Shown: piece after piece, positions 7,212 through 61,561 of the stretch
Layout: each line of letters opens with the position of its first letter
How positions within the stretch are numbered: the first letter of the stretch is position 1
Source: Fibrisoma limi BUZ 3
GTDB lineage: Bacteria > Bacteroidota > Bacteroidia > Cytophagales > Spirosomataceae
Reading direction: 5' to 3'
Length of the DNA: 64,000 nucleotides
NCBI RefSeq assembly: GCF_000296815.2
Contig: NZ_CAIT01000004.1
Location: 806,001 to 870,000 of the forward strand
Made by a program: the position numbers and the translations under genes
Notes under the pieces: generated by a model
Told to the model about the DNA's origin: nothing
The model's input: the letters and a program-made list of their open reading frames with translations, nothing else
The model's database searches: none

Positions 7212-7227
7212 CTCAAATCACATACCA
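7212..7227 (-). promoter_or_regulatory. σ54-like -24/-12 promoter A
   Basis: The minus strand reads TGGTATGTGATTTGAG, which fits TGGYAYR-N4-TTGR, the σ54 promoter layout with the invariant GG and TG spaced as required. The -12 position is G-A rather than the common G-C. Predicted transcription would begin near 7200, about 28 bp before the ATG of permease 2. The TGG edge lies 54 bp from the upstream dyad, as at the four other copies. Confidence 0.72.
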
Positions 7228-7279
7228 TATTAGATAAATAGCTAAAAACCAACCGAATATCTATTGGGCCCAATAAAGA

Positions 7280-7320
7280 CTGTCCGCAACCGGACGCCAT
7301 ATACGTTCAGTTGCGGACAG
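7280..7320 (-). promoter_or_regulatory. Upstream activating dyad A (TGTCCGCAAnCGGACG type)
   Basis: On the plus strand 7281-7296 reads TGTCCGCAACCGGACG and 7310-7320 reads GTTGCGGACAG, exactly complementary to 7280-7290. The first 16-mer is itself a dyad (GTCCG-N4-CGGAC). The second, 7304-7319, is a degenerate copy about 23 bp away centre to centre, roughly two helical turns. Tandem dyads about 100 bp upstream of a σ54 start are typical of enhancer-binding protein sites. Confidence 0.78.
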
Positions 7321-7354
7321 CTTCATAGGGTATACTCTATCTGAGCAGGCTTGC

Positions 7355-8776
7355 CTACGGTTTATCCCACCAGAGGGGCGTCGACAGTGGGACATCGTCT
7401 GGGACGTTTACGCCGTTTTTCGACGTTTCGCCGTTTGGATAGGCCACCCGACGAATGAACGTAGGCAGGGCTGCGTTGAGGGGCAGCGTAAATCCTTTAT
7501 AGCGGTAATCGTACCGGCGGGCGTCATTCCACGCTTCTGGATTCAGGTACGTGGTGACGTATTTCTCCTTGAAAATCAATTCGAGTGTGAGCCCATTGGC
7601 GCCAACCCCAACCGCCGGATTGGATAGGTACGCATCACGGGCGGCTGCCGCTACGCCAAGTTTATCCATATTGGCCCGAATGCCCGCCAGATAAGCAGCA
7701 TAGGCCCGCGCCCGGTCACCGGCCCGCAGAGCGGCTTCTGCCTCCACAAACTTCATCTCCGAGTAAGTGACAATCAGCAGCGGGGAGGCATCACCGCTCA
7801 GGGGTGAATTCAGTGAAATATAGACTTCATCTTTGGTGGTGTTGTTGCCGCCCACGTTGCCCTGACCGTTTCGGGTGCCGACGTAGGTATTGTTGACCGT
7901 TCTGTCCGTAATCTTCTCGATGCGGGGGTCAACAATGCTGTAGGTGGTGCCGTTCAGGTGGTTAACCAACTGCGTCGACAGCCAGCCATCCAGCAACAGG
8001 TTTGCGTTGTTGCGGGCTACCTGCGCCCACGGGTTCCGCAGTTGAAAAGAAGCCATCTGGGCGTCGTCCGCATTCGACGAATACGATTTGGAAACCGCGT
8101 CGAGAACAGCCGCCGGATCGTAGCTGCTCTTCTTTGAAATCTTATTCAGCATCCTGGCTCTGAGTGCGTGGGCCGTTTTGATCCAGGCGGCCGTGCTCCC
8201 TTTGTGGATCAAATCATTAGCGGCCACCAGCTTGATCCGCGAATCAGTTTTCGCCAGTTCAGTAAGGCTCTCGTTGAGAAGGCTCAGCGCGGTTGTGTAC
8301 AGCGTCTCTTCCGAATCGTACGTCGGTGTGAGTGTTGTGCCATCGAAAGCATTCGAAAAAGGGGCGGCCCCGAACGTATCAGCGATCAGGTTAAGGTGAT
8401 ACGCCAGCATGACATCCGCTACACCCACGTATTCCGAAGCGCCCTGTTCCTGGGCCTGTAACTTCATGTCGCGCAGATCGGCCAGGGCAAAATAAACGTA
8501 ATCCCAGGTGGCGGTGTAATCCGTAACCTGGTACGTATCGGTTGACCCGCCGGCGGTCGGATTCGCCAGATACTGGACAAAATAAGACGTGAAGTTTGCC
8601 ACCCGCTGCGAGCTGAACGCCGTTTTCTGCGTTGTGGTCGACAGCAACGCGCTCAGGGGTGGGTTGGAAATCAGACTTGGGTTGGTGTCCAGTTTAAAAT
8701 AATCCTGACAGCCGCTTGTTCCGCCAAGCAGCAGGACCGCCAGCGCGAACGTTGTATATCGAGTATGAAATTTCAT
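7355..8776 (-). CDS. SusD/RagB-like outer-membrane lipoprotein
   Basis: The 473-residue product is the surface lipoprotein that caps a SusC-type TonB-dependent channel and binds its ligand. The signal sequence MKFHTRYTTFALAVLLLGG ends in TSGC, a lipobox-like site for lipidation. The following segment (DYFKLDTNPSLISNP, then LLSTTTQKTAF) is typical of the SusD-like branch with an early TPR-like helical core. The C-terminal part carries EAEAALRAGD and the FKEKYVTTYLNPEAWNDARR region near the ligand-facing side. I chose the ATG at 8776 because an in-frame start at 9040 lies within susC and would hide the signal peptide. The gene is 23 bp after the SusC gene and surely co-transcribed. The ligand cannot be read from sequence: no glycoside hydrolase or peptidase lies beside the pair. 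Confidence 0.93.
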   Translation of the reverse strand: MKFHTRYTTFALAVLLLGGTSGCQDYFKLDTNPSLISNPPLSALLSTTTQKTAFSSQRVANFTSYFVQYLANPTAGGSTDTYQVTDYTATWDYVYFALADLRDMKLQAQEQGASEYVGVADVMLAYHLNLIADTFGAAPFSNAFDGTTLTPTYDSEETLYTTALSLLNESLTELAKTDSRIKLVAANDLIHKGSTAAWIKTAHALRARMLNKISKKSSYDPAAVLDAVSKSYSSNADDAQMASFQLRNPWAQVARNNANLLLDGWLSTQLVNHLNGTTYSIVDPRIEKITDRTVNNTYVGTRNGQGNVGGNNTTKDEVYISLNSPLSGDASPLLIVTYSEMKFVEAEAALRAGDRARAYAAYLAGIRANMDKLGVAAAARDAYLSNPAVGVGANGLTLELIFKEKYVTTYLNPEAWNDARRYDYRYKGFTLPLNAALPTFIRRVAYPNGETSKNGVNVPDDVPLSTPLWWDKP

Positions 8777-8799
8777 GAGTTGCGTTGTGAAAGAAGTGA

Positions 8800-12078: not shown

Positions 12079-14460
12079 TCACTCCGTTCGCAAGCTCTTC
12101 ACCGGATTCATCAATGCGGCCTTTACACTTTGCAGGCCGACGGTCGCCAGCCCTACGGCCGTCGCCAGAAACCCCGCCAGGGCAAATACGGGCCATTCTA
12201 TATCAATCTTGTACGTGTATTCTTCCAGAAACTGGCTCATGGCGTAATAGCCAATGGGAGCCGCAATCATGAAGGCAATGAGGATGAGCCGGAGAAAGTC
12301 CGTTGATAACAGTGTTACAATACTGACGACCGTAGCGCCCAGCACTTTCCGCACGCCAATCTCCTTAGTTCGCTGCGTGACTACGAACGATACCAGACCG
12401 AACAAACCCAGGCAGCCAATGAAGATGCCGACAATGGCGAGTAGTGACAGAAAGTTGGTCAGCTTGCGTTCGTCTTCGTAAAACGTTCGGAGGGTATCGT
12501 CCAGGAATGCCGGATCGTAGTAATGGTTCGGAAACAGGGCTTTCCAATGCTGGCCGATGTGCGCCAGGGCGGCCGTTTTCTGCTTTGGATCAATGCGGAT
12601 ACTGGCTTCCTGAAAATTCCAGTCGGCATAGAGAAACACGTGCGGCACAATACCCGACTTCAGGCTCTGCGAATGGTAATCTTTCACGACGCCCATGATC
12701 GTGAAGGGTTTGTCGTGGTACAGATTGATACGTTCGCCGATTGCTTTTTCCGGTGTTTGAAATCCCAGCTCACGGGCCGCTTTTTCATTGATAATCGCAA
12801 CGGTGTTCGTATCGGCGCGGGTCCAGGACCGTCCGGCCACTAGGGGTATCCTGAAAAACTGGAAGTAATTCGTGTCGACGTATTGGGTCCGGAACTCGTA
12901 TTCGCCGTTGGGCAGGTTCGGGTGGCGTACCGTACCCCACCACCAGTTGTTGTTGCTGGACGGTGTGGTTAAGGCAAAGGCAACGTCTTTGATTTCCGGA
13001 TGCTGCCTCAACTGTTGACGCAACCGTTCGCGCAGAACAGGATTGCCACGGTCGGGCATCCGGACGGTTACGACAGCTTCTTTATTGAATCCCAGATCAG
13101 TCTGGTAGAAATACCGAATTTGTTTGGTTCCGATCAGGGTGCAGATAACTAGCACCTGAGCAATAACAAACTGCGTAACGACCAGCGTCTGACGTAGTGA
13201 AATCCGGCCGCGATCCGGGGTACTTAACCGGCTTCGCAGCACCCGCACCGGCTGAAACCCTGACAACACCAGGGCCGGATAGCTACCCGCCAGCAGGGTT
13301 ACGATGCTGCCCAGCAGCACCAGAAAAGACACCGTATTCTGGTCCCAGACAGTTGATTGCGACACCTGTGTCGTCAGCAGGCGGTTGGCGTAGGGAAGCA
13401 ACTGCATGGCTAACAATCCGCCTAAACTGATGGACACTAAAACCAGAAAAGCCGTCTCACCAAAGAACTGCGCAATCAATTGAGTGCGGCTGCTCCCAAG
13501 CACTTTCCGTACGGCGATTTCGCGGCTGCGCCGTACGGCCTGCACCGTGGCCAGGTTTACGAAATTAATGCAGGCAATGACGATCAAGAACAAGCCGATG
13601 CTGGCCAGGGTGTACAGCATCCACTGCGGAATGACGTAGTTATACGGATCGGCATCACTCTGTGTGTCGCGGTGTACGTCGACCAGCGGCAGCAGGTCAA
13701 AATTCGTGTAATGGCTTTCGGACCTATGCTGGGCGGCCAGTTTACCCACGGTTGCTTCAATCGCCGACGGAGCCGTATTGGGTTTCAGCAGCACGTAGCC
13801 GTGGTGCATGGAGTCGCCCCCGCTCCAGTAGGTTTCGTTGGTGTACTGCGGCATAATTCGCTTCAGCGTCTCTCGCGACGCCAGCACCTGAAACTGAAAC
13901 TCGGTGTTGGCCGGCACCTGCCGGATAATGCCCGATACGATCAGGGTGACGCTGTCCCGAATGCGAAGCGTTTTTCCCAGCGCATCCCCGTTTTTGAAGA
14001 AACGCCGGGCGGTCGGTTCGTCGAGCACTACCTGATACGGTTGACTGAGCGATTGCTGGGGCGATCCGCTGAGCCAATCGACGTCGATCATCTCCAGAAA
14101 GGCCGGGGGCGCAAAATAGATGTGCTTCACGTTGAAAACCGTTTGGCCGACCTTAACCCCGTCCGATTCGATTGCGTAGGTGTTCACGGCCCGCTCAACG
14201 CCGGCTACCTGTTCATTCAGGGTTTTAATAACGCCCTGCGGTACGTGCGACCCCTTTTCGCCGTACTTATCCTTACCAATGAGCCGATACAGGCGGTCGG
14301 CGTTTTGGTGGTAGCGGTCGAAGCTATACTCAAACCGCACAATCCAGAACAGCACAATGGCTACACCGAGACCCAGCGTCAGGCCGGTCAGGTTGATCAG
14401 CGCGTAACTCCGGTTGCGGAGCAGCGTGCGCCAGGTGGTTTTAAGATAGTTGGTTAGCAT
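12079..14460 (-). CDS. FtsX/MacB-type ABC transporter permease 3
   Basis: This 793-residue protein has the duplicated permease plan. It begins MLTNYLKTTWRTLLRNRSYA, one of the more divergent N-termini of the set. The first cytoplasmic motif is SREIAVRKVLGSS (about 311), with Ala in place of the usual Gly before VRK; the second is TKEIGVRKVLGA (about 697). The tail is MNPVKSLRTE. A strand near 660 reads VVKDYHSQSLKSGI, the conserved periplasmic segment before the third FtsX helix group. It is the last permease of the long run led by promoter B, 48 bp after permease 4, with a small hairpin between. Confidence 0.92.
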   Translation of the reverse strand: MLTNYLKTTWRTLLRNRSYALINLTGLTLGLGVAIVLFWIVRFEYSFDRYHQNADRLYRLIGKDKYGEKGSHVPQGVIKTLNEQVAGVERAVNTYAIESDGVKVGQTVFNVKHIYFAPPAFLEMIDVDWLSGSPQQSLSQPYQVVLDEPTARRFFKNGDALGKTLRIRDSVTLIVSGIIRQVPANTEFQFQVLASRETLKRIMPQYTNETYWSGGDSMHHGYVLLKPNTAPSAIEATVGKLAAQHRSESHYTNFDLLPLVDVHRDTQSDADPYNYVIPQWMLYTLASIGLFLIVIACINFVNLATVQAVRRSREIAVRKVLGSSRTQLIAQFFGETAFLVLVSISLGGLLAMQLLPYANRLLTTQVSQSTVWDQNTVSFLVLLGSIVTLLAGSYPALVLSGFQPVRVLRSRLSTPDRGRISLRQTLVVTQFVIAQVLVICTLIGTKQIRYFYQTDLGFNKEAVVTVRMPDRGNPVLRERLRQQLRQHPEIKDVAFALTTPSSNNNWWWGTVRHPNLPNGEYEFRTQYVDTNYFQFFRIPLVAGRSWTRADTNTVAIINEKAARELGFQTPEKAIGERINLYHDKPFTIMGVVKDYHSQSLKSGIVPHVFLYADWNFQEASIRIDPKQKTAALAHIGQHWKALFPNHYYDPAFLDDTLRTFYEDERKLTNFLSLLAIVGIFIGCLGLFGLVSFVVTQRTKEIGVRKVLGATVVSIVTLLSTDFLRLILIAFMIAAPIGYYAMSQFLEEYTYKIDIEWPVFALAGFLATAVGLATVGLQSVKAALMNPVKSLRTE

Positions 14461-14477
14461 GGTTTTTAAGGGGATAA

Positions 14478-14504
14478 GGGCTTGGGGACAACTACCCCAA
14501 ACCC
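14478..14504 (-). repeat. Class B intergenic hairpin between permeases 4 and 3
   Basis: The arms GGGCTTGGGG (14478-14487) and CCCCAAACCC (14495-14504) pair with one mismatch around a 7-nt loop. The stop codon of permease 4 is TAG, as at the other class B hairpins. No run of T follows on the minus strand. Confidence 0.6.
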
Positions 14505-14508
14505 AGCA

Positions 14509-16953
14509 CTATTCATTACGTAAACTCTTCACCGGATTCATCAGAGCTGCTTTCACCGTATGGAAGCTAACCGCCAATACCGCCGTTAGCAGACCCATTG
14601 CTCCGGCTAAGGCAAATACATCCCAGCCAATGTCGACTTTGTAGGCAAAGTCCTGCAGCCATTTCGACATCAGCCACCAGGCGGCCGGTACGCCCAGCGC
14701 AAAAGCCAGCAACGCCAGCCGGAACGTTTCACGGTTAAGCAGCAGGAACAGTTGCGACACCGTAGCGCCCAGTACTTTGCGAATGCCGATTTCTTTGGTT
14801 CGGTTTGCGGCATTGAGCCCCGACAACCCAAATAGTCCCAGACAGGCTACCAGAATGGCAAACAACGTAGCCGACGCCATAATATTCATCCAGCGGCTGT
14901 AGGATTCGTACTGTTTGGCAATATCCTGATCTAGAAAGGTGTAGTTAAACGGCTGACCATCTGATAGCTGTTTCCAATCGCTGCCGATACGGGCAATGGT
15001 TTCGGGCGAGGCTCCCGCGCGGAGTTTGAGCAGGAATTGCCCCGCACTTTTCGGGTCGACGCGTAACATCATTGGCTCAATCTTCGACTCCAGCGTTGAG
15101 AAGTGATAGTCTTTCACAACGCCAATGACCCGCTGGTTACCAAGTGGTTTTAAGGGCTGGTTGAGGGCGAAATCCTTGCCCAGACGTCGGGCCAGGGCCT
15201 CATTGATGATAACCGCTTGTTCCTTACTGGCGGTGTCGCTGGGGAACCTGGGGGAGAAATTGCGCCCTTGAGTCAGCCTGAGGTTGAGCAAAGGCAGGTA
15301 ATCGTAATCCACACCGTACGAATATACCCAGGTGTCCTCGTCGTTGATTTTGTAGAAATACATATTTGTGCCCCGACCCAGTGAACTGGACGTACCGCTC
15401 ACGGCTACCAGATCCGGATTGGTGCGCTTAAGGTCAACCAGTCGTTCTCGTACTAATTTCACTTTGTCGGGGTTCTGGTCGTAGTTGTTGACAACCAGTA
15501 CGTGTTCCTTGTCAAAGCCCAGATCTTTCTGCGCAATGAATCGCATCTGCCGATTCATCACCAGGGCCGCGGTCATCAGAAACAGGCAAATGCCGTATTG
15601 CACGACCACCAGTGCCCGCGACAGAACAGGGTTTACCCGATACGTCTGGTGCCCCCTTAGCAAGCGAATGGGTTGATAGCCCGAAAGGACCAGCGCCGGA
15701 TAGCCGCCTGCCAGCAAACCAATGACGAGAACCAATACGGTACTGCCGCCGACAACCCATCGGTCAGACCAATCAAGCAGGAGTTCACGGCCGGTGTACT
15801 GATTGAAGGTGGGCAGAAAGGCGGCCGTAAGTACGTAGGCCAGAACAAACGCCCCGAGCGTCAATAGCTGCGTTTCAATCCACAACTGAAACCAGACCTG
15901 GCTTTTACCGGCACCAACCACCTTCCGAACGCCGACTTCCTGCGTGCGCGTAGCCGCATTAGCCAGGGTCAGTGATACGTAATTGACACAGGCCACAAAC
16001 AGCATCAGGGCGGCAATACTCATCAAAATATAGGCGTACAGCGGATTGGTGACCTCGGGGAAGTAAACGGCGCTGTCGAAATGCAGATCGGGTAATGCTT
16101 TGGCTTTTAACTCCAGACCCGGTTTGTCCTTCGGTAGCCGATTGTTTTTCTTCCAATCGCTGATCATGCCTTTGAAGTAGTTGTTGGCAAAGACGTTCAG
16201 CTTGCGGCTAAAAGCGACCGGGTCTACGCCGGCTTTCACCTCAATCATTGTGGACGTGCAGAAGCAGTTGTCCACCGTGTTGGCGTATTCTTCATACGCC
16301 GGATTGCGCTCTATGCGCACCAGCATGTCAGGTTTCAGGCTGGAGTTCGAAGGAATGTCGTCCATGACGCCCCGCACCGTAAACGGCTGCATACCCTCAA
16401 TGTCCAGATTGATCGCTTTGCCGACCGGGTTGCTGTTGCCAAAGTATTTCCTTGCCAATTCCTTCGACAGCACTACATCGTTTGGCTCGCGGAGCGCTGT
16501 TGGGCGGTCGCCATACACGAGCGGGAACGAGAACATGTCCAGAAAGGTCTGATCGACGTAGTATAGCTTCTCGCTGGCCATCTGCTCACCAACGCGCATG
16601 AGTGCCTGGCCCTCATTGAAGCGTACGGCGTTCTGTACGTCTGGCAATTGTTGCTTAATGGCTGGGGCAATGGGGTAGGGCAAACGCACCAGCCGCTTGT
16701 TGTCTTTGGGGGTAAGTGAGCTGAGGAACCCCGACGACCAGGTCATCGACGCATTAACGTTGTCGATGTAATCGATTCGGTAGATTCGGTCAGCTTTGGC
16801 ATGGAAACGGTCAAAACTGTACTCGTGCCGGACATACAGGTAAATCAGCAGGCAAAACGCCATCGCAACGGCCAGACCTGCCAGGTTGATAGCGGAGTAG
16901 ACGCGGCTTTTCCACAGATTTCGGAGCGCGATTTTAACGTAGTTCCGGAGCAT
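14509..16953 (-). CDS. FtsX/MacB-type ABC transporter permease 4
   Basis: This is an 814-residue duplicated permease. Its first periplasmic domain is longer than in most siblings and unusually holds a CFC pair (DNCFCTSTMIEVKAG, about 230); these could form a disulphide, which I did not see in other members. The cytoplasmic motifs are TRTQEVGVRKVVGAG (about 334) and RTKEIGIRKVLGA (about 717). The second is preceded by GLSGLNAANRTKE rather than the common AEQRTKE. The tail is MNPVKSLRNE, the only RNE ending in the array. It follows the NTF2-like gene after 128 bp that contain a 25-bp perfect inverted repeat. Confidence 0.92.
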   Translation of the reverse strand: MLRNYVKIALRNLWKSRVYSAINLAGLAVAMAFCLLIYLYVRHEYSFDRFHAKADRIYRIDYIDNVNASMTWSSGFLSSLTPKDNKRLVRLPYPIAPAIKQQLPDVQNAVRFNEGQALMRVGEQMASEKLYYVDQTFLDMFSFPLVYGDRPTALREPNDVVLSKELARKYFGNSNPVGKAINLDIEGMQPFTVRGVMDDIPSNSSLKPDMLVRIERNPAYEEYANTVDNCFCTSTMIEVKAGVDPVAFSRKLNVFANNYFKGMISDWKKNNRLPKDKPGLELKAKALPDLHFDSAVYFPEVTNPLYAYILMSIAALMLFVACVNYVSLTLANAATRTQEVGVRKVVGAGKSQVWFQLWIETQLLTLGAFVLAYVLTAAFLPTFNQYTGRELLLDWSDRWVVGGSTVLVLVIGLLAGGYPALVLSGYQPIRLLRGHQTYRVNPVLSRALVVVQYGICLFLMTAALVMNRQMRFIAQKDLGFDKEHVLVVNNYDQNPDKVKLVRERLVDLKRTNPDLVAVSGTSSSLGRGTNMYFYKINDEDTWVYSYGVDYDYLPLLNLRLTQGRNFSPRFPSDTASKEQAVIINEALARRLGKDFALNQPLKPLGNQRVIGVVKDYHFSTLESKIEPMMLRVDPKSAGQFLLKLRAGASPETIARIGSDWKQLSDGQPFNYTFLDQDIAKQYESYSRWMNIMASATLFAILVACLGLFGLSGLNAANRTKEIGIRKVLGATVSQLFLLLNRETFRLALLAFALGVPAAWWLMSKWLQDFAYKVDIGWDVFALAGAMGLLTAVLAVSFHTVKAALMNPVKSLRNE

Positions 16954-16980
16954 GGTTGGTTTGGAGTTCGGTTGAGGATT

Positions 16981-17071
16981 TAGGTCTGACGGTACGTCTG
17001 ACCGGCTAGTCCAGTGTTGTTAAACACGATTTCGATTTGGTTAACTCCGGTCAGACGTACCGTCAGACCTA
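16981..17071 (-). repeat. 25-bp perfect inverted repeat with GTCTGAC direct repeats
   Basis: Positions 16981-17005 are exactly complementary to 17047-17071, with a 41-nt loop. Each arm also holds a direct repeat: GGTCTGACGG, then TACGTCTGACCGG. The same word with one base changed recurs at 44487-44510. The element lies between the NTF2-like gene and permease 4. There is no T-run, so a simple intrinsic terminator is doubtful; an attenuator, a protein site or a dispersed repeat are alternatives. Confidence 0.8.
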
Positions 17072-17081
17072 CATGAGCCTG

Positions 17082-17546
17082 CTACTTCATGGCCTGCAAC
17101 GACTTCGGTGGAGACTGCCAGAGTACGTTGACAATCATCCAGCGACCGTTATCCTTCATCAGGTGGATATAGTCAATACCCCAGACGGCCGTCACTTTAG
17201 CCGAAGCCGTTTTGTCGGCTATTTCGAATACGTCTACAATTCTCGGGGAGTTGGCATTGGCGCGTTTCCCATCCTTGTTCCAGGTACTGGCCAGCCGGAT
17301 CAAGGCCGGAAAGGGCATTTCCAGTTGCCTGGAATACGCACTGGTTTTGTCGCTGTAGGAGAATCCGCGCTTTTGCAGACTGGGATGGATGCTCTGGTAC
17401 GCCAGCGTCGTATCGGCTTTGTAGAACGTATCAATATAGTCATAGCAGGCCTGTTTGACGCCCGCTACGTCGTCGGTTGGGCTACTCTGGGCATACAGGA
17501 CGGCCGTGGTAAGTGCCAGAAACGTTGTAATCGCTAGTTTTCTCAT
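17082..17546 (-). CDS. Exported NTF2-like (putative lumazine-binding family) protein
   Basis: The 154-residue product has a signal peptide (MRKLAITTFLALTTAVLYAQ) and one NTF2-like cone-fold domain. It is recognisable by VKQACYDYIDTFYKADTTLA at the start and the closing strand pattern ASAKVTAVWGIDYIHLMKDNGRWMIVNVLW. Many exported Bacteroidota members of this fold are annotated as putative lumazine-binding proteins without proven ligand. I chose the ATG at 17546 because it begins the signal peptide; an in-frame start at 17624 would overlap the upstream gene. It lies 28 bp after the DUF4932 gene, suggesting co-transcription. Confidence 0.8.
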   Translation of the reverse strand: MRKLAITTFLALTTAVLYAQSSPTDDVAGVKQACYDYIDTFYKADTTLAYQSIHPSLQKRGFSYSDKTSAYSRQLEMPFPALIRLASTWNKDGKRANANSPRIVDVFEIADKTASAKVTAVWGIDYIHLMKDNGRWMIVNVLWQSPPKSLQAMK

Positions 17547-17574
17547 AGGGTTAAAGGTTTTATCAAGATTAATG

Positions 17575-18987: not shown

Positions 18988-18994
18988 AGGGGTT

Positions 18995-19092: not shown

Positions 19093-19095
19093 TTT

Positions 19096-24078: not shown

Positions 24079-24079
24079 T

Positions 24080-47319: not shown

Positions 47320-47329
47320 TATTTGTTTG

Positions 47330-48050: not shown

Positions 48051-48064
48051 GGTAATTGGCTAGC

Positions 48065-50551: not shown

Positions 50552-50588
50552 TGTCCGCAAATGGACGGGTTAGGTACAGTTGTGGACA
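50552..50588 (-). promoter_or_regulatory. Upstream activating dyad D
   Basis: The plus strand reads TGTCCGCAAATGGACG (50552-50567) and ends TTGTGGACA (50580-50588). One base in each copy departs from the GTCCG-N4-CGGAC core, so this is the weakest dyad. The two copies are 21 bp apart centre to centre. Confidence 0.7.
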
Positions 50589-53145: not shown

Positions 53146-53236
53146 AGAGGTGGTTTAGTGCTGATTATAATAAATGTGCTACCCTATACGAGGGCAATTT
53201 TGGTCATCGGTTCAGTCACATTAATCCCGGCTCGGA

Positions 53237-55669
53237 TCATTCCGTCCGCAAACTCTTCACCGGATTCATTAGAGCGGCCCGGATGCTTTGATAGCTCACC
53301 GTAAGCAGGGCAATAACCACCGCCACCAAACCAGCCAGCCCGAACATCCACCAATCGAGAGAAATGCGATACGCAAAGCTTTGCAGCCACTGATTCAGTG
53401 CATACCAGGCGATGGGCGTAGCAATAAGAATAGCCAGTAGCACAGGCTTTATGAAATCTTGGCTGAGTAGTAACACCAGGCTTGCTATACTGGCACCCAG
53501 CACTTTGCGAACACCTACTTCTTTGGTACGTTGCTCAGCCGTGAACGTCGCCAGGCCAAACAGCCCCAGGCAGGCTACCAGAATAGCCAGCCCCGTAAAA
53601 ACAGTAAAAATCCGCTGAAATTGCCGCTCCGACCGGTATTGTTCGTCAAACTTCTGATCGAGGAAAAAGTAGTCGAATGGGCTTTGCGGAAAAAGCTGCT
53701 TCCAGATCTGGTTCACCTGGTCAATCGTGCCCGGCAGTTGCTGCGTGCCCAGCTTCACCGAAAAGTAGGCCATTCGGGTGGGCGGTGGACAGGTGTATAA
53801 AATTGGGCGGGTAGGTAACTTTAGCGATTCAATATGAAAATTATCCACAACGCCGATAATCCGCATGTCGCTGCCCCGGCGGGTTGCTTCTCCGCCGAAC
53901 ACCAGCGATTCGTCGACGGCTGCTTCGGGCGACGGAAAGCCAAGGGCTTTTAAGGCGGCCCGGTTAATAATGTAGCGGTTGCGCCAGTGCGGTTCGTTTG
54001 CCTGGAAGCCCCGGCCTGCCAGTTGCCGAACCCCATACGTGCGCATGAACTGCTCATCTACATTGACAAAGTAGATGGTCGGTTTGTTAGCGGTGATCCG
54101 TTTCTTCCAGTAGACGCCATCGCTGGTGCCGCCAATGGTATTAATGCCTTCGCCGGGCACTACTGATGAAGCCGTTATGTTGCGAACGGAAGGCAGTCTG
54201 GCCACTTCTGCCTTAAATACCGCATACTTCTTCTGATAAACGGAGTCCTGATTGAAATCAAAGCGGGGTGCTTTCAGCACAAGCATCTGATCAATGGATA
54301 CGCCCAGGTCATGCTTTTGCAGAAAGGTAAGCTGACGATAAATTGTAACCGTTGCCGCCAGCATCCCGACAGTACAAACCAGTTGAAAAACGACTAACGC
54401 TTTCCGTAAGGCCAGCCCTTTGCCAACCCGACTAAATGAGCCGCGCAGCATACTCATCGGCTCGTAGCCCGACAGCACCAGGGCTGGGTAGAAACCGGCA
54501 CCTACCACGCTGATCAAAAACAACGCAGCCAGCGTAAGCCCAAATAGTACGTGATTCGTGTAAAACCAGTTGGTCAGCGGTTTACCCGTAAGTTCGGCAA
54601 AAGCCGGACCCGCCAGTTGCATGAAAAACACGGCCAGGCTGATGGCGAGCAGATTAACAACAATGGCCTCGCCCAGAAATTGCCCAATAAGCTGACTTCG
54701 GCTGGCACCGATCGTCTTCCGAAGCCCTACTTCTTTCGCTCGTTCCATCGCCCGTGCCGTTGTCAGATTGCTGTAATTAATCCAGGCGATACCCAGAATG
54801 AAAGCCGCAATCAGCAGGAGAAAATACACGATACGAACGCTGCCATTCGGTTCATGTTCGTACGTAAGATCCGAGCGAAGATGAATGTCCGTAAGCCGCT
54901 GCATATTCAGCGCCAGGTTGCTGGTGCTCAGATACCGCTTGCTGAGTTCGGCCAGCTTAGCCCGCACCAACTCCGGATTGGCCTGTGGATGCAACTGAAT
55001 GTAGTTGTAATCCCAGTAATTCTCCCAGTTGTCGGTATGCCCCTGGCTGTACAGCGTCTGGTACGGCAAGAGCATCTCAAACTTAAGGTGCGAGTTGAGC
55101 GGGACATCCTCGATCACGGCTGCGACGGTATGCGGCCCGGTAAACCACCCGCCCACCAGTTGAAGCGTTTGCCCAATGGGATTTGCAGGGCCGAAATACG
55201 TTGCTGCTGCTGATTTGGTCAGGATAACACGGCCTGGCTGGCTTAACCCCTGCGTGGCGTTGCCCTGTAGCACCCTGTACGGAAACATACGCAGAAAGGC
55301 AGGCTCTACCGCGTAGGCTTTGCTTTGTGTGTAAGGGGTTTGCTTGTGAATAACCGTCAGATCGCGGGCGCTATATACGCGGGTGTAATCGACTACTTCG
55401 GGCAATTCAGCTTTCAGGGTTGGACCAACCGCGCTGTGCGTGTTCGCATCCCGGGTATCGAGGGAGCCGTTGCTGTAATTCTCCGTATAAATCCGCCAGA
55501 TCTGCTCAGCGTGTGGACTTTGCCGGTCGTAACTACGCTCAAACAGAACGTACTGTACAATCAGCAGACAAGCTGCCATCCCCACCGCCAGACCAACAAT
55601 CGTTACGACGGAGAAAACCTTGTGCTTCAGTAAGCTACGTACGGTAATGATAAGGTAGTTTTGGAGCAT
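53237..55669 (-). CDS. FtsX/MacB-type ABC transporter permease 16
   Basis: This 810-residue duplicated permease has motifs MERAKEVGLRKTIGAS (about 327), with an unusual RKTIGA, and QRTKEVGVRKVLGAS (about 713). The tail is MNPVKSLRTE. TM1 (VGLAVGMAACLLIVQYVLFERSYD) is close to that of permease 15, with which it shares the start of the first periplasmic domain. The second periplasmic domain reads VVPGEGINTIGGTSDGVYWK and ends YTCPPPTRMAYFSVKLG; the cysteine there is unusual. DNA at 53274-53353 is almost identical to the end of permease 14. Confidence 0.92.
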   Translation of the reverse strand: MLQNYLIITVRSLLKHKVFSVVTIVGLAVGMAACLLIVQYVLFERSYDRQSPHAEQIWRIYTENYSNGSLDTRDANTHSAVGPTLKAELPEVVDYTRVYSARDLTVIHKQTPYTQSKAYAVEPAFLRMFPYRVLQGNATQGLSQPGRVILTKSAAATYFGPANPIGQTLQLVGGWFTGPHTVAAVIEDVPLNSHLKFEMLLPYQTLYSQGHTDNWENYWDYNYIQLHPQANPELVRAKLAELSKRYLSTSNLALNMQRLTDIHLRSDLTYEHEPNGSVRIVYFLLLIAAFILGIAWINYSNLTTARAMERAKEVGLRKTIGASRSQLIGQFLGEAIVVNLLAISLAVFFMQLAGPAFAELTGKPLTNWFYTNHVLFGLTLAALFLISVVGAGFYPALVLSGYEPMSMLRGSFSRVGKGLALRKALVVFQLVCTVGMLAATVTIYRQLTFLQKHDLGVSIDQMLVLKAPRFDFNQDSVYQKKYAVFKAEVARLPSVRNITASSVVPGEGINTIGGTSDGVYWKKRITANKPTIYFVNVDEQFMRTYGVRQLAGRGFQANEPHWRNRYIINRAALKALGFPSPEAAVDESLVFGGEATRRGSDMRIIGVVDNFHIESLKLPTRPILYTCPPPTRMAYFSVKLGTQQLPGTIDQVNQIWKQLFPQSPFDYFFLDQKFDEQYRSERQFQRIFTVFTGLAILVACLGLFGLATFTAEQRTKEVGVRKVLGASIASLVLLLSQDFIKPVLLAILIATPIAWYALNQWLQSFAYRISLDWWMFGLAGLVAVVIALLTVSYQSIRAALMNPVKSLRTE

Positions 55670-55743
55670 GGGGCAAGGGGTTTAGGGTGTGGGGCAAGGG
55701 GCGTGGGTTGGCCGTTACTCCAAACCCCTTGCCCCACACCCTA
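55670..55743 (-). repeat. Class B hairpin with two competing arms between permeases 17 and 16
   Basis: AGGGTGTGGGGCAAGGGG with flanking T (55683-55701) pairs perfectly over 19 nt with 55725-55743. A second arm, GGGGCAAGGGGTTT (55670-55683), pairs perfectly with AAACCCCTTGCCCC (55722-55735), which overlaps the same partner. Two mutually exclusive stems are therefore possible. The TAG stop of permease 17 is three bases away. Confidence 0.75.
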
Positions 55744-55745
55744 CG

Positions 55746-58199
55746 CTATTCAGCTCGTAAACTCTTCACCGGATTCAGCATCGCGGCCCGGATACTCTGG
55801 AAACTGACCGTAATCAGCGCAACCACTACGGCCAGCAGACCCGCCAGGGCGAACATCCACCACTCAATGCTGATCTTGTACTCAAAGTCTTTCAGCCAGC
55901 CGCTCATGACGTACCAGGCCACGGGTGAGGCTACCACCAAAGCGATCAGAACGAGTTTGAGGAAGTCGAGGGAGAAAATACTGAAAATATGCACCGTCGA
56001 TGCACCCAGCGCCTTGCGTATGCCCACTTCCTTTGTGCGCGACTCGACCATGAAGGCGACGACACCGTAGAGACCTAAACAGCCGATGAAGATAGCGATA
56101 CCGGCTAACAGCCGAAACACCGAAAACAGTCGCTCTTCGTTCCGGTAGAAGTTGTCAATGGCTTCGTCCAGGAACTCATATTTGAATACAAATTCAGGAA
56201 AAGTTGCCTCCCATGACTGTTCAACTGTATGGACAAGACGGTTGATCGCTTCGACACCGCCTTGTCGAGTATCAAACTTGATACCCAGCGTATTGTAGGC
56301 GTCCCGCGATGACGTTAAAATAGACGGGGCCGTTTTTCGGTGCAGGGAGTAGGTGTTGAAATCTTTAACTACGCCAACCACCGGTTTCTTTTCCTGACTG
56401 CCGCCCAACGCAATCCGTTTGCCGATAATCTGTTTCGGATCGCGGAAGCCCAATTTTTGGGCCAGTGACTCGTTCACCACCAACTCCCGCATAGTGTCGG
56501 CGGGCAGGTACATACGTCCAGCAATCAATTGCAACCCATAGGTACGGATGTACGATGTATCGGCCGGGCGCATGACCACGCTAAAATCGGAGTCTTTATC
56601 GGCGTTTTCGAAGCGGATGCTGGTCGACCAGTTGCCATTGGCCGAAGGAGCTGATATGCCATAGCTCAACGATTCTACAGTAGGCAGACCGGCCAGTTTA
56701 GCCCGTAAGTTTTCCAGTTGTCCGGGTTTGCGTTCAGGAATTGGTATAGTCAGGACGGCATCTTTGCGATAGCCCAGGTCGGCCGACCGAAAATGCTGCA
56801 TCTGGCTGTAGGCAATGATGGTACCAATGATAAGCATCTGCGAGATGGCAAACTGCACCACAATCAGGCTCCGGCGCAGGTTTAGCTGCTTACTGCCTGA
56901 CCCACCAAGTTTGCCGGATGCAGCTCGCCCTTTCAGCGCCAGCACGGGCTGGTAGCCTGATAGTACCAGCGACGGATAAAAGCCCGCCAGAAAAGTGGTA
57001 AAAATGGCCAGTATGATCAGAAAACCGAATACGACCGGATCCGCTAATGTCAGATTGTCCGCTTTAATATCCAGAAGTTTAGCCACACTGGGAAGAACGG
57101 CATAGGCCAGCACCAGAGCCAGCCCGACGGCTATCGTAGTAAGCAACCCCGTTTCGCCCAGAAACTGACGTATTAACTGTGCCCGCGAACTACCCATTAC
57201 CTTACGAACCCCCACTTCCTTCGATCGGCGGATGGCCTGGGCTGTGGCTAAGTTGACAAAATTGACGCAGGCCGTGATGAGAATAAATAAGCCAATCAAT
57301 GCCATAGCCCAGATCGTCTGCTTACTGACAGTGCGGTTGGCATAATTGCCAGTTTCTTTACTGTAATGAATATCGGTCAACGGTTGCAGTTCAAACCTGA
57401 AATTCTTTGCATCCTCTGGGCGTAGGTATTTCTTGCCGAACGCAACTAATTTATCGTCCATCTGCCGGGTCGCTACCTCCTGATCCGCTGACGATGAGGG
57501 TAAGCTCAGATAAACCTGTGCACCACTGTAGGTCGACTGCCAATCATCCCAGCCGGTAAATGCTCCGTATTGCTTTAAGGAAGCAAATGCGAGTAGTATT
57601 TCAAACGGTACGCTGGTCGTAGCGGGCGGGTTCTCCACAACGCCAGTTACGGTAAAATCCATCTTATTCTCTAAGCGGATAGTCTTACCAATCGGGTCGG
57701 TGTTTCCAAAATACTTCTGCGCCATGCGCTCCGACAGCACGACCGTATTGGGGTTCTTGAGGGCTGTCTGCGCATTGCCTCGTTTCCAGCCGTAATCGAA
57801 GATGTTGAAGTATTCGGGTTCTACAAACGATACCAAACCACGGCCTTCCTTGAACTTGTTCGTGGTCGAACTGCCTGTTCGGATAACCACATCCGCGATC
57901 TCGTGGGTTAGCGTCACGTGTTGCTTCAACTCCGGGAAGTCGTTGCGCAGAGCGGCTAATACGGGCAACTGGATGCCGGTGTTTAACCCTTCCTGCTCAC
58001 CATTTTTATAGTGACCAATCATCCGGTACGTACGGTCGGCGTTGGCGTTGTGCCGATCGTAGCTCAGTTCGTAGCGAATGGCCAGAAACAACAACAGGCA
58101 GCACGCCAGGCCGAACGTCAGCCCGACAACGTTAATGACCGTGTAGTTCCAGTTGCGCTTCAGGGCGCGAATTGCCGTTGTGAAATAACTCTTTAGCAT
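55746..58199 (-). CDS. FtsX/MacB-type ABC transporter permease 17
   Basis: This 817-residue duplicated permease begins MLKSYFTTAIRALKRNWNYT at the ATG at 58199. An in-frame ATG at 58235 lies in the hairpin of the gap and would add twelve unconserved residues. It is the partner of permease 5, matching along most of its length (ATAQAIRRSKEVGVRKVMGS at about 326; ESRTKEVGIRKALGAS at about 720; the KPGQLENLRAKLAGLP segment). The tail is LNPVKSLRAE, as in permease 15 and not as in permease 5 (MNPVKSLRTE), consistent with replacement of its 3' end. Confidence 0.92.
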   Translation of the reverse strand: MLKSYFTTAIRALKRNWNYTVINVVGLTFGLACCLLLFLAIRYELSYDRHNANADRTYRMIGHYKNGEQEGLNTGIQLPVLAALRNDFPELKQHVTLTHEIADVVIRTGSSTTNKFKEGRGLVSFVEPEYFNIFDYGWKRGNAQTALKNPNTVVLSERMAQKYFGNTDPIGKTIRLENKMDFTVTGVVENPPATTSVPFEILLAFASLKQYGAFTGWDDWQSTYSGAQVYLSLPSSSADQEVATRQMDDKLVAFGKKYLRPEDAKNFRFELQPLTDIHYSKETGNYANRTVSKQTIWAMALIGLFILITACVNFVNLATAQAIRRSKEVGVRKVMGSSRAQLIRQFLGETGLLTTIAVGLALVLAYAVLPSVAKLLDIKADNLTLADPVVFGFLIILAIFTTFLAGFYPSLVLSGYQPVLALKGRAASGKLGGSGSKQLNLRRSLIVVQFAISQMLIIGTIIAYSQMQHFRSADLGYRKDAVLTIPIPERKPGQLENLRAKLAGLPTVESLSYGISAPSANGNWSTSIRFENADKDSDFSVVMRPADTSYIRTYGLQLIAGRMYLPADTMRELVVNESLAQKLGFRDPKQIIGKRIALGGSQEKKPVVGVVKDFNTYSLHRKTAPSILTSSRDAYNTLGIKFDTRQGGVEAINRLVHTVEQSWEATFPEFVFKYEFLDEAIDNFYRNEERLFSVFRLLAGIAIFIGCLGLYGVVAFMVESRTKEVGIRKALGASTVHIFSIFSLDFLKLVLIALVVASPVAWYVMSGWLKDFEYKISIEWWMFALAGLLAVVVALITVSFQSIRAAMLNPVKSLRAE

Positions 58200-58229
58200 T
58201 GTTGTAAGAGGCTTGGGACTAGGGGTGCA

Positions 58230-58264
58230 GGGCAAGGGGAATCGGTACCCTATGCCCCTCGCCC
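58230..58264 (-). repeat. Class B intergenic hairpin between permeases 18 and 17
   Basis: GGGCAAGGGG (58230-58239) pairs with CCCCTCGCCC (58255-58264) with one mismatch; GGTACC sits in the loop. The stop of permease 18 is TAG in the TAGCGT context seen at the other class B sites. Confidence 0.6.
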
Positions 58265-58268
58265 GACG

Positions 58269-60686
58269 CTATTCGGTTCGTAAACTCTTTACTGGATTCA
58301 GCAGCGCGGCCTTAACGCTCTGGAGGCTGACCGTCAGGAAGGCAATCAGCAGCGCCATCGCTCCGGCCAGTGCAAACACCCACCACTGAATGTCAATTTT
58401 ATAGGCGAAGTCCTGAAGCCACTGATGCATACCGTACCAGGCCAGTGGCGATGCGATCACGACCGATACCAGCACGAGTTTCAGGAAGTCTTTGGCCAGC
58501 AGTGTGACAATACCCGGTACCGATGCGCCCAGCACCTTCCGGACGCCAATCTCCTTCGTACGGCGGACAACGGCTAACGTAGCCAGACCGAACAGACCCA
58601 GGCAGGCAATCAGGATCGACAGGCACGACGCCATGGTGACGATCCGGCCCAGGCGCTGTTCCGCTTCGTACTGTCGCTGCAAATCGGCGTCGAGGAACGT
58701 AAAGCTGAACGGCTCGTTAATCGTCATACTTTTCCAGGTCCGTTCCAGCATCGCTACCTTATCGGACAGATTTCCGGCCGACAGCCGAACCGACAGATCC
58801 GGCGACGGCGACGATTGGTACATGAGGTTCTCAATGCCTTTGAAAACTGAATCCGACCGCATCATCAACATGAGCGGCTCCACTTTTTCGTGCAGCGATA
58901 CGTAGTGAAAGTCCTCTACTACGCCGATAATCCGGTGGGCCGGGAACCGGCTCGACAGCCGGGCGTTCATCGGGTCTTTCCAGCCGAACTTCTTCACAAA
59001 GGCCTCGTTGACGATGATGGCACCGAAGTTGTCGGCGCTGTTTTTGGCGTCGAAGTTGCGACCGGCCACCAGCTTGATACTGTAAGTTGGTATGAAATAG
59101 GGGTCTACTACGTTGAAATTTGTTTCGCGGTACACCTTCTGATCGTCGGTGAAGCCCATTTCACCCCAGCCACCACTGGCAAACGGAAAAGCCGATGACG
59201 TTACGCTCAGTACGTCTTTCTGGCTGGACACCGCATTGCGAAACCGCTCGACAAGGGCCCGGCCTTCGGGGCCGCCTACGCCAACCGGAATGACTACGGT
59301 TTGGTCTTTCTGATAGCCCAGCGACTTGTTTTGCAGGAAGTTCAGTTGCTGGTTCAGCACGAACGTACCGGCAATCAGCATCACCGACAGGCTAAACTGC
59401 ACAACGACCAGGGCCCGGCGGAAGAAACTAACGTCACCTTTCAACGACAGCTTGCCTTTGAGCACCTCAACCGGCCGGAAGCCCGAAAGGACCAGCGCCG
59501 GATAACTACCCGCGACCAGACCGACCACAACTACCAGCCCCAGCAGAAGCAGGGCCGTTGTGCCGTCGAAGCGGAAGTGAAGTTCCTGATTGGCCAGTTG
59601 CCCAAACAGCGGAGTGAGTACGATTGCAAGCGCTAAGCCCAGCACCACGGCCAGCACAGTCATCAGCAGTGCTTCGCTCCAGAACTGGTTCATCAACTGG
59701 CTTCGGAGCGCCCCCATCGCCTTACGAACGCCCACTTCCTGCGCCCGGCTAACCGATCGGCCCAGCGACAGGGTCATGAAGTTGATGCAGGCAATAACGA
59801 GCAGAAACAACGCGATACCCGACAGGATATACGAATAGGCCGGGTCGCTCACGGGCTCATACCCACCGTTCAGGGCCTTGTTCAGGTGAATGTCGGTGAT
59901 TGGCTGAAGATTAATGACGTAATTATTCCCTTTATAATCATCGCCGAGTGCCGAGCGAAGCAGGGAAGGGTATTTAGTAGCCAGTTTGTCGGCGCTGGCC
60001 GATTCGCGGAGCAGGACGTACGTTTCGGGGGTAACGTTGAACCAGCTTTTCAGGGTGCGGTCCGACACCAGATTCTTGACATGGGCCATCGGGATCAGGA
60101 TACCAAACCGGATGCTCGAACTGGTCGGTACGTTCCTGGCAACGGCTTTAACGGTAAACGCCTGCATGGTACTATCCAACTGCATGTTCAGCGTTTTACC
60201 GATGGGATTCTCCGTTCCGAAATATTTCTGAGCCATCTCTTCCGACAGCACCACCGAGAACAAATCCTGAATGGGATTACCTCCCGGCGAACTGACTAAT
60301 GGGAAGTCGAACATCCGGAAGAAGTCCGGATCGGCCATGTGAACCCGTTCACTGAATACCTCCGCTCCTTTCCGGACATTGACGGTGTTGACCTGCACCC
60401 GGCTCATGGCTTCCACCTCCGAGAAAGTCTCTTTGAGGGTAGGACCGAGGATATAGGGGGTTGATACGTTGACAAATTGTTCGCCTTTGTACACTTCCTG
60501 CGTCCAGGCCCGGTGCAGCCGGTCGGCTTTGGTGTGGAACCGGTCGAAGCTCCACTCGTGCCGAACATACAGGCCCAGCAACAAACAGCAGGTTACGGCG
60601 ATCGTTAGTCCTCCCAGGTTGATAAAGGCATACACCTTGTGCCTGGCGAAGTTGCGCAACGCCACTTTTAGGTAATTCCGGAACAT
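58269..60686 (-). CDS. FtsX/MacB-type ABC transporter permease 18
   Basis: This 805-residue duplicated permease begins MFRNYLKVALRNFARHKVYA at the ATG at 60686; an upstream in-frame ATG at 60707 is less likely. TM1 is LGGLTIAVTCCLLLGLYVRH, and EWSFDRFHTKADRLHRAW follows. The motifs are VSRAQEVGVRKAMGAL (about 325), with Gln in place of Lys/Arg before EVG as in permease 4, and RRTKEIGVRKVLGAS (about 708), reached through ATLAVVRRTKE rather than AEQRTKE. The tail is LNPVKSLRTE. It is the first permease of the promoter E unit, 94 bp after the small exported protein. Confidence 0.92.
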   Translation of the reverse strand: MFRNYLKVALRNFARHKVYAFINLGGLTIAVTCCLLLGLYVRHEWSFDRFHTKADRLHRAWTQEVYKGEQFVNVSTPYILGPTLKETFSEVEAMSRVQVNTVNVRKGAEVFSERVHMADPDFFRMFDFPLVSSPGGNPIQDLFSVVLSEEMAQKYFGTENPIGKTLNMQLDSTMQAFTVKAVARNVPTSSSIRFGILIPMAHVKNLVSDRTLKSWFNVTPETYVLLRESASADKLATKYPSLLRSALGDDYKGNNYVINLQPITDIHLNKALNGGYEPVSDPAYSYILSGIALFLLVIACINFMTLSLGRSVSRAQEVGVRKAMGALRSQLMNQFWSEALLMTVLAVVLGLALAIVLTPLFGQLANQELHFRFDGTTALLLLGLVVVVGLVAGSYPALVLSGFRPVEVLKGKLSLKGDVSFFRRALVVVQFSLSVMLIAGTFVLNQQLNFLQNKSLGYQKDQTVVIPVGVGGPEGRALVERFRNAVSSQKDVLSVTSSAFPFASGGWGEMGFTDDQKVYRETNFNVVDPYFIPTYSIKLVAGRNFDAKNSADNFGAIIVNEAFVKKFGWKDPMNARLSSRFPAHRIIGVVEDFHYVSLHEKVEPLMLMMRSDSVFKGIENLMYQSSPSPDLSVRLSAGNLSDKVAMLERTWKSMTINEPFSFTFLDADLQRQYEAEQRLGRIVTMASCLSILIACLGLFGLATLAVVRRTKEIGVRKVLGASVPGIVTLLAKDFLKLVLVSVVIASPLAWYGMHQWLQDFAYKIDIQWWVFALAGAMALLIAFLTVSLQSVKAALLNPVKSLRTE

Positions 60687-60718
60687 GAGAAAGGAGGTTA
60701 AGGGCAAAGGAATAGCCG

Positions 60719-60751
60719 GGAAAGAAAACGGCTTTCGCCAACTTTCTTTCC
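60719..60751 (-). repeat. Short hairpin between the exported hypothetical gene and permease 18
   Basis: GGAAAGAAA (60719-60727) pairs exactly with TTTCTTTCC (60743-60751) around a 15-nt loop (ACGGCTTTCGCCAAC). It occupies the middle of a 94-bp gap and resembles a small class A element. Confidence 0.55.
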
Positions 60752-60780
60752 GAATAGTATAGTGCGCTTGGCGTAGGATA

Positions 60781-61398
60781 TTACTGGTTCACCGACTTGA
60801 TGCCGAGGCTGCGCTCGGTTTCTTTAATAATCGCCTGCTTTTCGCGCTCGGACTTGCCGATTACGTTGACGGTCCGTTCGAAAACCAGTTCATCGCCGTC
60901 TTTCTTAAAGGTATACTGCATCCACAGCCGACCGTTTTCCTTGTCCTCACGGAACAGAACGGATGCAGGCGGTACGTCGCTCGGCGAGAGGGTTCTGGCG
61001 GATTTGGCTTCGAGCAGTGCTACCTCCGGGTCAGCAGAGGCCACCTGGTCTTCGGCATCAATCCTGGCTGCGAAAGCCACCTGTTCGGTGCAGTCTTTCT
61101 TTTTGGACTTGCTACTCTTCGATTCCCGCTTCCGCTCGTTGAATACGCCGGCATACCGCCCGTCGCTGGCCTGATCGAGGGAGTCCAGTACGCTGCGTTC
61201 GAGGTCGCGTACGGCGCTGACGCTCATGGCCGATACGTCGAACGAACGGCTAAAGCGTATTACGCGATTGGGTTGTTCAATGTCAACGCGAATCCGAAGC
61301 TCCCGACCGTCGGTCGTCACTTCTTTGCTGTAGGATGACCGCTGGGCCAGGGCACCAAAGCCAACCGTAAGTAACAGGAGCGTAAGTAGCGTTTTCAT
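60781..61398 (-). CDS. Exported protein of unknown function, first gene of a σ54-like permease unit
   Basis: The 205-residue product has a signal peptide (MKTLLTLLLLTVGFGALAQ). I recognise no family. Visible parts are a beta-strand opening (REVTTDGRELRIRVDI-like, IRFSRSFDVSAMSVSAV), a basic Ser/Lys stretch (RKRESKSSKSKKKDCTEQ, about 95-110), and a final strand pair (RLWMQYTFKKDGDELVFERT) before a helical tail (KSEREKQAIIKETERSLG). The ATG at 61398 was chosen because it starts the signal peptide; a start at 61467 lies across promoter E. It is the only non-permease gene directly under a promoter of this type, so it may be an accessory periplasmic component. Confidence 0.7.
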   Translation of the reverse strand: MKTLLTLLLLTVGFGALAQRSSYSKEVTTDGRELRIRVDIEQPNRVIRFSRSFDVSAMSVSAVRDLERSVLDSLDQASDGRYAGVFNERKRESKSSKSKKKDCTEQVAFAARIDAEDQVASADPEVALLEAKSARTLSPSDVPPASVLFREDKENGRLWMQYTFKKDGDELVFERTVNVIGKSEREKQAIIKETERSLGIKSVNQ

Positions 61399-61455
61399 CA
61401 GTTGCAGAGAATTTTCGTATTGAGCAGTATAAGTAGAAATCCGTATACATGGCAT

Positions 61456-61471
61456 ATCTATGATCATGCCA
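61456..61471 (-). promoter_or_regulatory. σ54-like -24/-12 promoter E (weak -12 half)
   Basis: The minus strand reads TGGCATGATCATAGAT: a good -24 half (TGGCATG) and a poor -12 half (TAGA for TTGC/TTGR). I accept it because the TGG edge is 54 bp from dyad E, exactly as in the stronger copies. The predicted leader is about 45 bp. Confidence 0.55.
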
Positions 61472-61524
61472 AGTAATTATCCGTTTGAAAAACAATTAGT
61501 TATGTCGGCGTATAAGGCAGGAAA

Positions 61525-61561
61525 TGTCCGTTTGCGGACAAGTGCCGTACGACAGCGGACA
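61525..61561 (-). promoter_or_regulatory. Upstream activating dyad E
   Basis: The plus strand reads TGTCCGTTTGCGGACA (61525-61540), the most perfect dyad of the five (TGTCCG-N4-CGGACA), then GCGGACA at 61555-61561 as part of a degenerate copy 21 bp away. Confidence 0.8.

Follow-up and report, generated by a model that had tools for sequence, protein, structure and literature searches.

Most of a 64,000-nucleotide stretch of the Fibrisoma limi BUZ 3 genome (G000:C11:806001-870000, hereafter the window; the genome has 7.63 Mb) is made up of MacB-PCD/FtsX permease genes on the minus strand, and five copies of one composite regulatory element precede putative transcription units within it. Judging from sequence comparison, we consider it highly probable that this element is a sigma-54 promoter whose core is joined, in constant helical register, by a pair of activator sites, through which one activator would govern many exporter parts. 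Each copy would be a sigma-54 (RpoN) promoter with a -24/-12 core and a built-in enhancer, the latter formed by two tandem TGTCCG-N4-CGGACA-type sites, 20-23 bp apart, that would take two activator dimers. The activator, most probably the product of C11:897532-898947, would oligomerise on phosphorylation, its putative kinase gene being adjacent; the spacer between enhancer and core would be bent by a protein of the integration host factor (IHF)/HU family and/or by phased A/T tracts, and the bound activator would touch RNA polymerase-sigma-54 from one helix face. A signal, presumably one of envelope or toxin stress, would in this way jointly induce several long units with much of a 27-gene MacB/ADOP-like permease array, and the same signal would induce a HlyD/ATP-binding cassette (ABC) ATPase/permease operon beside the regulator.

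The core and dyads of each copy are listed in Table 1. The pattern TGGYAYR-N4-TTGR has four exact matches in the window, all on the minus strand and all corresponding to copies 1-4 (dinucleotide shuffles of the window gave a mean of 0.49, and none of 100 reached four). An earlier note on this DNA had described the core as five-fold and weak in the fifth copy; the exact pattern is indeed confined to copies 1-4, and the -12 box of copy 5 has no TTG. The TGTCCG-N4-CGGACA-type dyad which that note had placed in all five copies is there, exact in four of them and with one mismatch in copy 4, and the core-dyad gaps of 54, 54, 55, 53 and 54 bp (copies 1-5) were reproduced, as was the usual second, degenerate dyad 21-23 bp farther out, present in copies 1, 2, 4 and 5 and reduced to a half-site in copy 3. 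The strict composite, i.e., core plus dyad, is found in copies 1-3 of the window, and 100 shuffles yielded no match. The dyad alone, with one mismatch allowed, is less striking than the core (seven window matches, 2.41 expected). The core lies 54-62 bp from the start codon in copies 1-4, and the dyad 109-128 bp from it in the window copies (107-127 bp in the earlier note); the accompanying claim that each copy leads a permease unit needs amendment for copy 5, which first leads a 205-amino-acid protein.

The same composite recurs in related genomes. We found 144 strict matches in 50 of 149 genomes (the window's own genome included, with seven matches) and six with a reversed control, which leaves 137 copies in relatives. 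Taking as downstream gene the longest open frame of at least 60 codons that starts within 600 bp of the site, 136 of these sites have one (135 distinct genes; the remaining site, L241, lies at a contig end), and in 120 of the 136 it is a MacB-type permease, an ABC ATPase or a HlyD gene (119 distinct exporter genes), 98 of the 120 beginning within 200 bp of the site. The downstream genes comprise 86 permeases, 19 ATPases, 15 HlyD genes, three genes like that of the 205-amino-acid protein of copy 5 and 13 with no seed match; scans of six of the latter returned one DUF4097, one beta-lactamase-like and one DUF5916 protein, and no family for three. For comparison, the same procedure was applied to 36 looser control sites of the own genome with loci: an exporter gene follows none of the 30 sites that match the dyad at no more than nine of 12 letters (five of which have no qualifying frame), none of three with 10 and all three with 11. 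The earlier note had opposed a random scatter of genome-wide matches to a position before permease genes, and the strict-composite sites fall mostly in the second place (120/136, against 0/30 in the control).

In the own genome, where the composite was searched with dyad-core gaps of 48-58 bp, two further copies belong to the array, at C11:875957-876037 and C11:895573-895655, 6 and 26 kb past the window; the second heads a HlyD, ABC ATPase and permease operon. The exact dyad GTCCGN4CGGAC occurs 11 times in the genome, six times at C11:813-896 kb (82 kb, about 1% of the genome; binomial probability about 7e-10). Seven of the 11 lie in a strict composite, and one more (C10:434959) is separated from its core by 64 bp; about 380 bp beyond C10:434881 a permease gene begins, the first long frame on that side; C11:867526 is copy 5 of the window, whose core fails the strict pattern, and C5:348595 and C6:1981787 have no composite match. 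Outside the array, the sites C8:487617, C9:779087 and C9:290360 (dyad 11/12) precede an ATPase or permeases. A second array, at C10:345-443 kb, holds 24 MacB-type permeases and one exact copy of the composite (the one with the 64-bp gap; exact patterns used). The proposal that one NtrC-type activator coordinates the whole permease family is supported by the comparison in its first part, and "whole" is too wide, because these 24 permeases share a single exact-pattern copy.

When the dyad-to-core gap was allowed to vary from 20 to 88 bp, the sites fell into clusters at 44 bp (n = 3), 51-58 bp (n = 144, of which 133 at 53-55 bp; core pattern without the A at +4), 63-66 bp (n = 31), 74-78 bp (n = 22) and 84-88 bp (n = 6), with three stray sites at 31, 32 and 71 bp. 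The classes at 74-88 bp are partly the distal dyads of tandem pairs. Some overlap exists between classes, since in a few cases one dyad or core was counted in two of them (e.g., G085:C6:136426, G078:C19:167952 and G106:C501, and, as distal dyads, sites of G003, G038, G027 and G084). To judge from the sequences, this series of classes about 10 bp apart is helical phasing, with tandem dyads on one helix face relative to the core, and it fits an activator that must face the polymerase across a short loop. We regard this phasing as the strongest argument that the element is functional.

In the copies of the relatives, core letters that the search did not demand are conserved, namely C/T at +3, A at +4 (131/137), C/T at +5, A/G at +6 and mostly G/A at +14. 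A second dyad (at least 9 of 12 letters) is present in 87 of the 137 copies, always 20-22 bp farther out (shuffles, 0.5). The spacer contributes a part that the layout of the earlier note left out, an IHF-like element or phased A/T tracts. Scored against WATCARNNNNTTR, which we take to be the IHF consensus, 64 of 137 spacers contain an IHF-like element (at least 8 of 9 letters; shuffles, 11.5), and 53 of these 64 elements start 18-21 bp before the TGG; in the window, copy 3 scores 9/9 and copy 2 scores 8/9. The A/T content of the relatives' spacers has a period of 10.0 bp. This period and the IHF-like element suggest a spacer suited to bending, whether protein-induced, intrinsic or both. We also observed a strong hairpin in 27 of 137 spacers (e.g., L165, L166, L167, L199 and L201), several of them resembling an intrinsic terminator between enhancer and core; hairpin and IHF-like element occur together in two of 137. 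The spacer element was also considered as a primary-sigma promoter of the Bacteroidota type, the usual spacing of which it does not seem to fit.

Both an rpoN gene and an NtrC-family gene near permeases, which the earlier note had suggested looking for, are present. The former is represented by one PF04552 match (E 5.4e-55). Matches to sigma-54 activators (enhancer-binding proteins, EBPs) number 11 strong and four weak ones in the genome; one of the strong ones is a response regulator that lies 28 kb beyond the window end and some 1.9 kb away from the composite C11:895573-895655. This candidate activator (C11:897532-898947, 472 amino acids) combines a PF00072 receiver, a PF00158 AAA+ domain and a PF02954 Fis-type helix-turn-helix (HTH), lies on the strand opposite to that of the composite, with a PMT_2 gene in between, is followed by a histidine kinase gene with PAS and HATPase_c domains, and is 96% identical to a Fibrisoma montanum protein. 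Among the 80 named loci that contain a relative of the activator, a looser composite is found near that gene in some, for instance in Fibrisoma montanum, Spirosoma fluviale, Larkinella soli and Larkinella terrae, as well as in Ferruginibacter paludis and Chitinophaga arvensicola. With orthologs defined by at least 62% identity, a cut-off chosen after the scores had been seen, 50 of 149 genomes have an ortholog and one has a partial one. Ortholog and composite co-occur (both, composite only, ortholog only and neither in 42, 8, 8 and 91 genomes; Fisher p 7e-21), also within the family (40/5/8/38; p 2e-12), both values ignoring relatedness.

The dyad itself often accompanies the activator gene. 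Within 700 bp upstream, 34 of the 51 orthologs have a dyad with at most two mismatches (shuffles, 0.8), and 28 of those loci have a sigma-54 core at 40-100 bp from it. In five loci (L321, L322, L323, L326 and L329) the composite is aimed at the activator gene itself, which suggests autoregulation; the same dyads also serve a divergent promoter in L323, L326 and L329. The window genome's activator is linked to the dyads through the composite at a distance of 1.9 kb. Of nine more distant homologs, five have upstream dyads of a variant type, in most cases TGTACG or TGTTCG, with no such core, as if site and protein had drifted together. No dyad with at most two mismatches was found at the loci of the other ten strong EBPs of the genome or in wider stretches around six of them. 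The sigma-54 contact loop reads GAFTDA, not GAFTGA, in 71 of 80 related loci, the candidate activator included, and GAFTDA is listed among the loop variants that would keep activity (PMC4641369). Where the loop could be read (nine of the 11 own EBP loci), only the candidate activator and C9:1442688 have GAFTDA, and both lie by permeases. The latter (G000:C9:1442688-1444034; L008, L277) is 46% identical to the activator and has no TGTCCG dyad near it.

Several observations weigh against our interpretation. C at the -12 position is rare in the relatives' copies (13/137; G 56, A 48, T 20), and copies 1-4 of the window read TTGA or TTGG; the sigma-54 consensus is TTGC, its C being a strong preference and not invariant. 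Copies 1, 4 and 5 have an IHF-like score of 7/9, a level that shuffled spacers often reach, and only one HU/IHF-family gene was found, the same one by both family models, so that an IHF heterodimer finds no second gene there; a homodimer or intrinsic bending is possible instead. Genome-wide, neither the half-dyad pattern alone (62 matches, 109 in the reversed control) nor the bare dyad (22 strand matches, 52 in the reversed control) is enriched, the bare dyad being rarer than in the control; only the composite is informative. In the own genome, no exporter gene follows any of the three sites whose dyad agrees at 10 of 12 positions, and matches from close relatives are not independent. Eight genomes have the composite without an ortholog (two are only 66 and 71% complete and one has the partial ortholog), eight have an ortholog without a strict composite, and 17 of 51 orthologs, that of the window genome included, have no dyad within 700 bp upstream. 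Finally, many of the sites with 63-66-bp gaps are in genomes outside the ortholog set (e.g., six in G142 and three in G094; also G106), these and others having only more distant homologs of the activator; for this reason more distant activators may use the same dyad, and our confidence is slightly lowered.

These last observations are what would favor the right promoters being served by another activator, that is, another of the 11 strong EBPs, such as the GAFTDA paralog C9:1442688, or several of them binding the dyads. This paralog shares the loop and adjoins permeases, eight composite-bearing genomes have no ortholog at the cut-off used, and the homologs in the genomes with 63-66-bp gaps are distant, five of nine such homologs having variant dyads upstream. 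However, the dyad is missing from the other EBP loci and surroundings described above and is frequent upstream of the candidate's orthologs, the composite even pointing at the gene in five loci, and we hold this alternative to be improbable. We give still less credit to the idea that the dyad is the operator of another regulator and the TGG/TTG boxes a promoter of a non-sigma-54 type. The -12 box, unlike TTGC in most copies, the extracytoplasmic function (ECF) sigma/anti-sigma pair in unit D and the winged-helix regulator gene close to copy 2 speak for it, but the TGGYAYR letters are conserved beyond what the search required, phasing at several gap classes suits an activator that contacts polymerase and not an overlapping operator, and the dyad stands beside a sigma-54 activator gene in many genomes. 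An ECF-sigma promoter was rejected on the conserved core letters.

That the copies are recent duplications without function, carried along with the permease genes, would agree with an array of duplicated permease genes; yet the spacers diverge while elements and spacing stay, and the element precedes HlyD, ATPase and other genes besides permeases in 50 genomes. With spacers and downstream genes that vary, we rejected such hitch-hiking, which now seems scarcely credible. A chance origin was rejected as well, on the window shuffles and on the reversed control (6 against 144). A sigma-54 promoter with paired, phased sites for the activator at C11:897532-898947 is therefore the explanation that we retain.

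The permease array to which these predicted promoters belong extends over C11:808-893 kb with 27 permease genes, of which 19 lie at least partly inside the window (the 27 here and the 24 of the second array were counted by eye as matches that begin at profile position 1 or 2). The putative units are given in Table 1. The last permease gene of unit D may have a separate transcript, since a 313-bp gap precedes it. In the interior of that unit (window 44635-47971), between permeases, we found genes for an ECF sigma factor, for an anti-sigma-like protein of the zf-HC2 type that contains HEAT repeats and for two toastrack (DUF4097) proteins, and a SusC/SusD-like pair (window 7355-11919) breaks the array between units A and B. 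The 205-amino-acid protein led by copy 5 (start at 61398) has, by eye, a signal-peptide-like N-terminus. Profile scans of 14 non-permease genes of the window and two beyond it, short frames not being scanned, found no ABC ATPase; one ATPase and one HlyD adaptor were found beside the 27 permeases, both in the operon at C11:890.5-895.5 kb.

Table 1. Predicted promoter elements and putative transcription units in the window (window positions; all on the minus strand).
Feature	Position	Strand	Remark
Copy 1 sigma-54-type core TGGTATGTGATTTGA	7213..7227	-	exact pattern match
Copy 1 proximal activator dyad	7281..7296	-	exact GTCCGN4CGGAC inside, 7282-7295
Copy 1 distal degenerate dyad TGTCCGCAACTGAACG	7304..7319	-	23 bp from proximal dyad
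Copy 2 sigma-54-type core TGGTACGCCATTTGG	29028..29042	-	exact pattern match
Copy 2 IHF-like element TATCAAACCACTG	29050..29062	-	8/9 letters
Copy 2 proximal activator dyad	29096..29111	-	exact GTCCGN4CGGAC inside, 29097-29110
Copy 2 distal degenerate dyad TGTCCGCAAGTGAACG	29118..29133	-	
Copy 3 sigma-54-type core TGGTATAGCATTTGA	41847..41861	-	exact pattern match
Copy 3 IHF-like element TATCAAAATCTTA	41869..41881	-	9/9 letters
Copy 3 proximal activator dyad	41916..41931	-	exact GTCCGN4CGGAC inside, 41917-41930
Copy 3 distal half-site TGTCCG	41938..41943	-	
Copy 4 sigma-54-type core TGGTATACCATTTGG	50485..50499	-	exact pattern match
Copy 4 proximal activator dyad	50552..50567	-	one mismatch to GTCCGN4CGGAC, 50553-50566
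Copy 4 distal degenerate dyad TGTCCACAACTGTACC	50573..50588	-	
Copy 5 weak core TGGCATGATCATAGA	61457..61471	-	-12 box mismatched, TTG missing
Copy 5 proximal activator dyad	61525..61540	-	exact GTCCGN4CGGAC inside, 61526-61539
Copy 5 distal dyad	61546..61561	-	one mismatch in GTCCGN4CGGAC
Unit A: permease, DUF2807 protein, permease	1589..7173	-	downstream of copy 1; probably co-transcribed (gaps of 34-46 bp)
Unit B: six permeases, DUF4932 gene, lumazine-binding-like gene	12079..28980	-	downstream of copy 2; predicted transcript extent
Unit C: four permeases	31922..41804	-	downstream of copy 3; probably co-transcribed
Unit D: permease, ECF sigma, zf-HC2 anti-sigma-like, two DUF4097 proteins, permease	41964..50437	-	downstream of copy 4
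Unit E: 205-amino-acid protein, four permeases	50704..61398	-	downstream of copy 5; probably co-transcribed
Unit F, window part: permease	61727..64000	-	headed by composite C11:875957-876037 outside the window; predicted extent

Sigma-54 promoters served by NtrC-type activators and having tandem activator sites and an IHF site are known, as in glnHp2, pspA and nifH. The element described here resembles them in its -24/-12 core, its tandem dyads, the IHF-like element between enhancer and core (in the window well matched only in copies 2 and 3), the predicted dependence on helical phase and a candidate activator of the two-component receiver-AAA+-HTH type. Unlike in these promoters, the enhancer is close to the core, the distance to the dyad end being nearly constant at 53-55 bp, the -12 box is mostly TTGG or TTGA, and the loop of the activator is GAFTDA. 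As for the exporters, matches to the NCBIfam models NF007826, NF038008, NF038010, NF038007 and TIGR03434 were obtained for the ATPase, the HlyD-like adaptor and four permeases, which relates them to MacAB/DarBCD exporters and ADOP permeases; the scores stay under the curated thresholds set for ADOP, Dar and MacB (263.5-346.2 bits for the four permeases against TIGR03434, the ADOP model, with a cut-off of 622.3 bits). The present array also differs from those systems in that a single ATPase and a single adaptor turned up alongside its 27 permeases.

A general link between sigma-54 and FtsX permeases is already in print: a 2025 computational survey of sigma-54 regulons in PLoS One reported COG0577/FtsX-like ABC permeases of Bacteroidia as enriched for sigma-54 and termed this the first evidence of such a link (PMC12316311). 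In the available part of that survey the permeases are given neither an activator nor a site for one, and neither a spacing rule nor an array is described for them. In the same phylum, the sigma-54 motif SM4 of Flavobacterium psychrophilum marks -24/-12 promoters tied to envelope stress and exported proteins (PMC9723704), and the accessible text gives no enhancer sites or permease arrays for it. Among the literature matches listed, in which the coverage of subscription journals is limited, nothing concerned this activator, its site or its spacing, and the activator-site pair has no published match there.

A bolder extension, which we put forward only tentatively and think rather unlikely to hold in full, is that one two-component switch commands a modular exporter, a single ATPase and adaptor being co-induced with up to 27 interchangeable permeases, and that the gaps of about 44, 54, 64, 75 and 86 bp together form a helical ruler, provided by nature, of how a GAFTDA-loop activator reaches polymerase at TTGG/TTGA -12 boxes. 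In the spacing classes, evolution seems to have recorded a constraint on looping by sigma-54 activators that is known mainly from engineered promoters. For exporters of a phylum in which the available parts of PMC12316311 and PMC9723704, and a term search of PMC3162934, reveal no such activator-site pair, our analysis predicts which activator acts, at what site and spacing and on which genes, which would give a handle on what the large MacB-like permease arrays of this group respond to.

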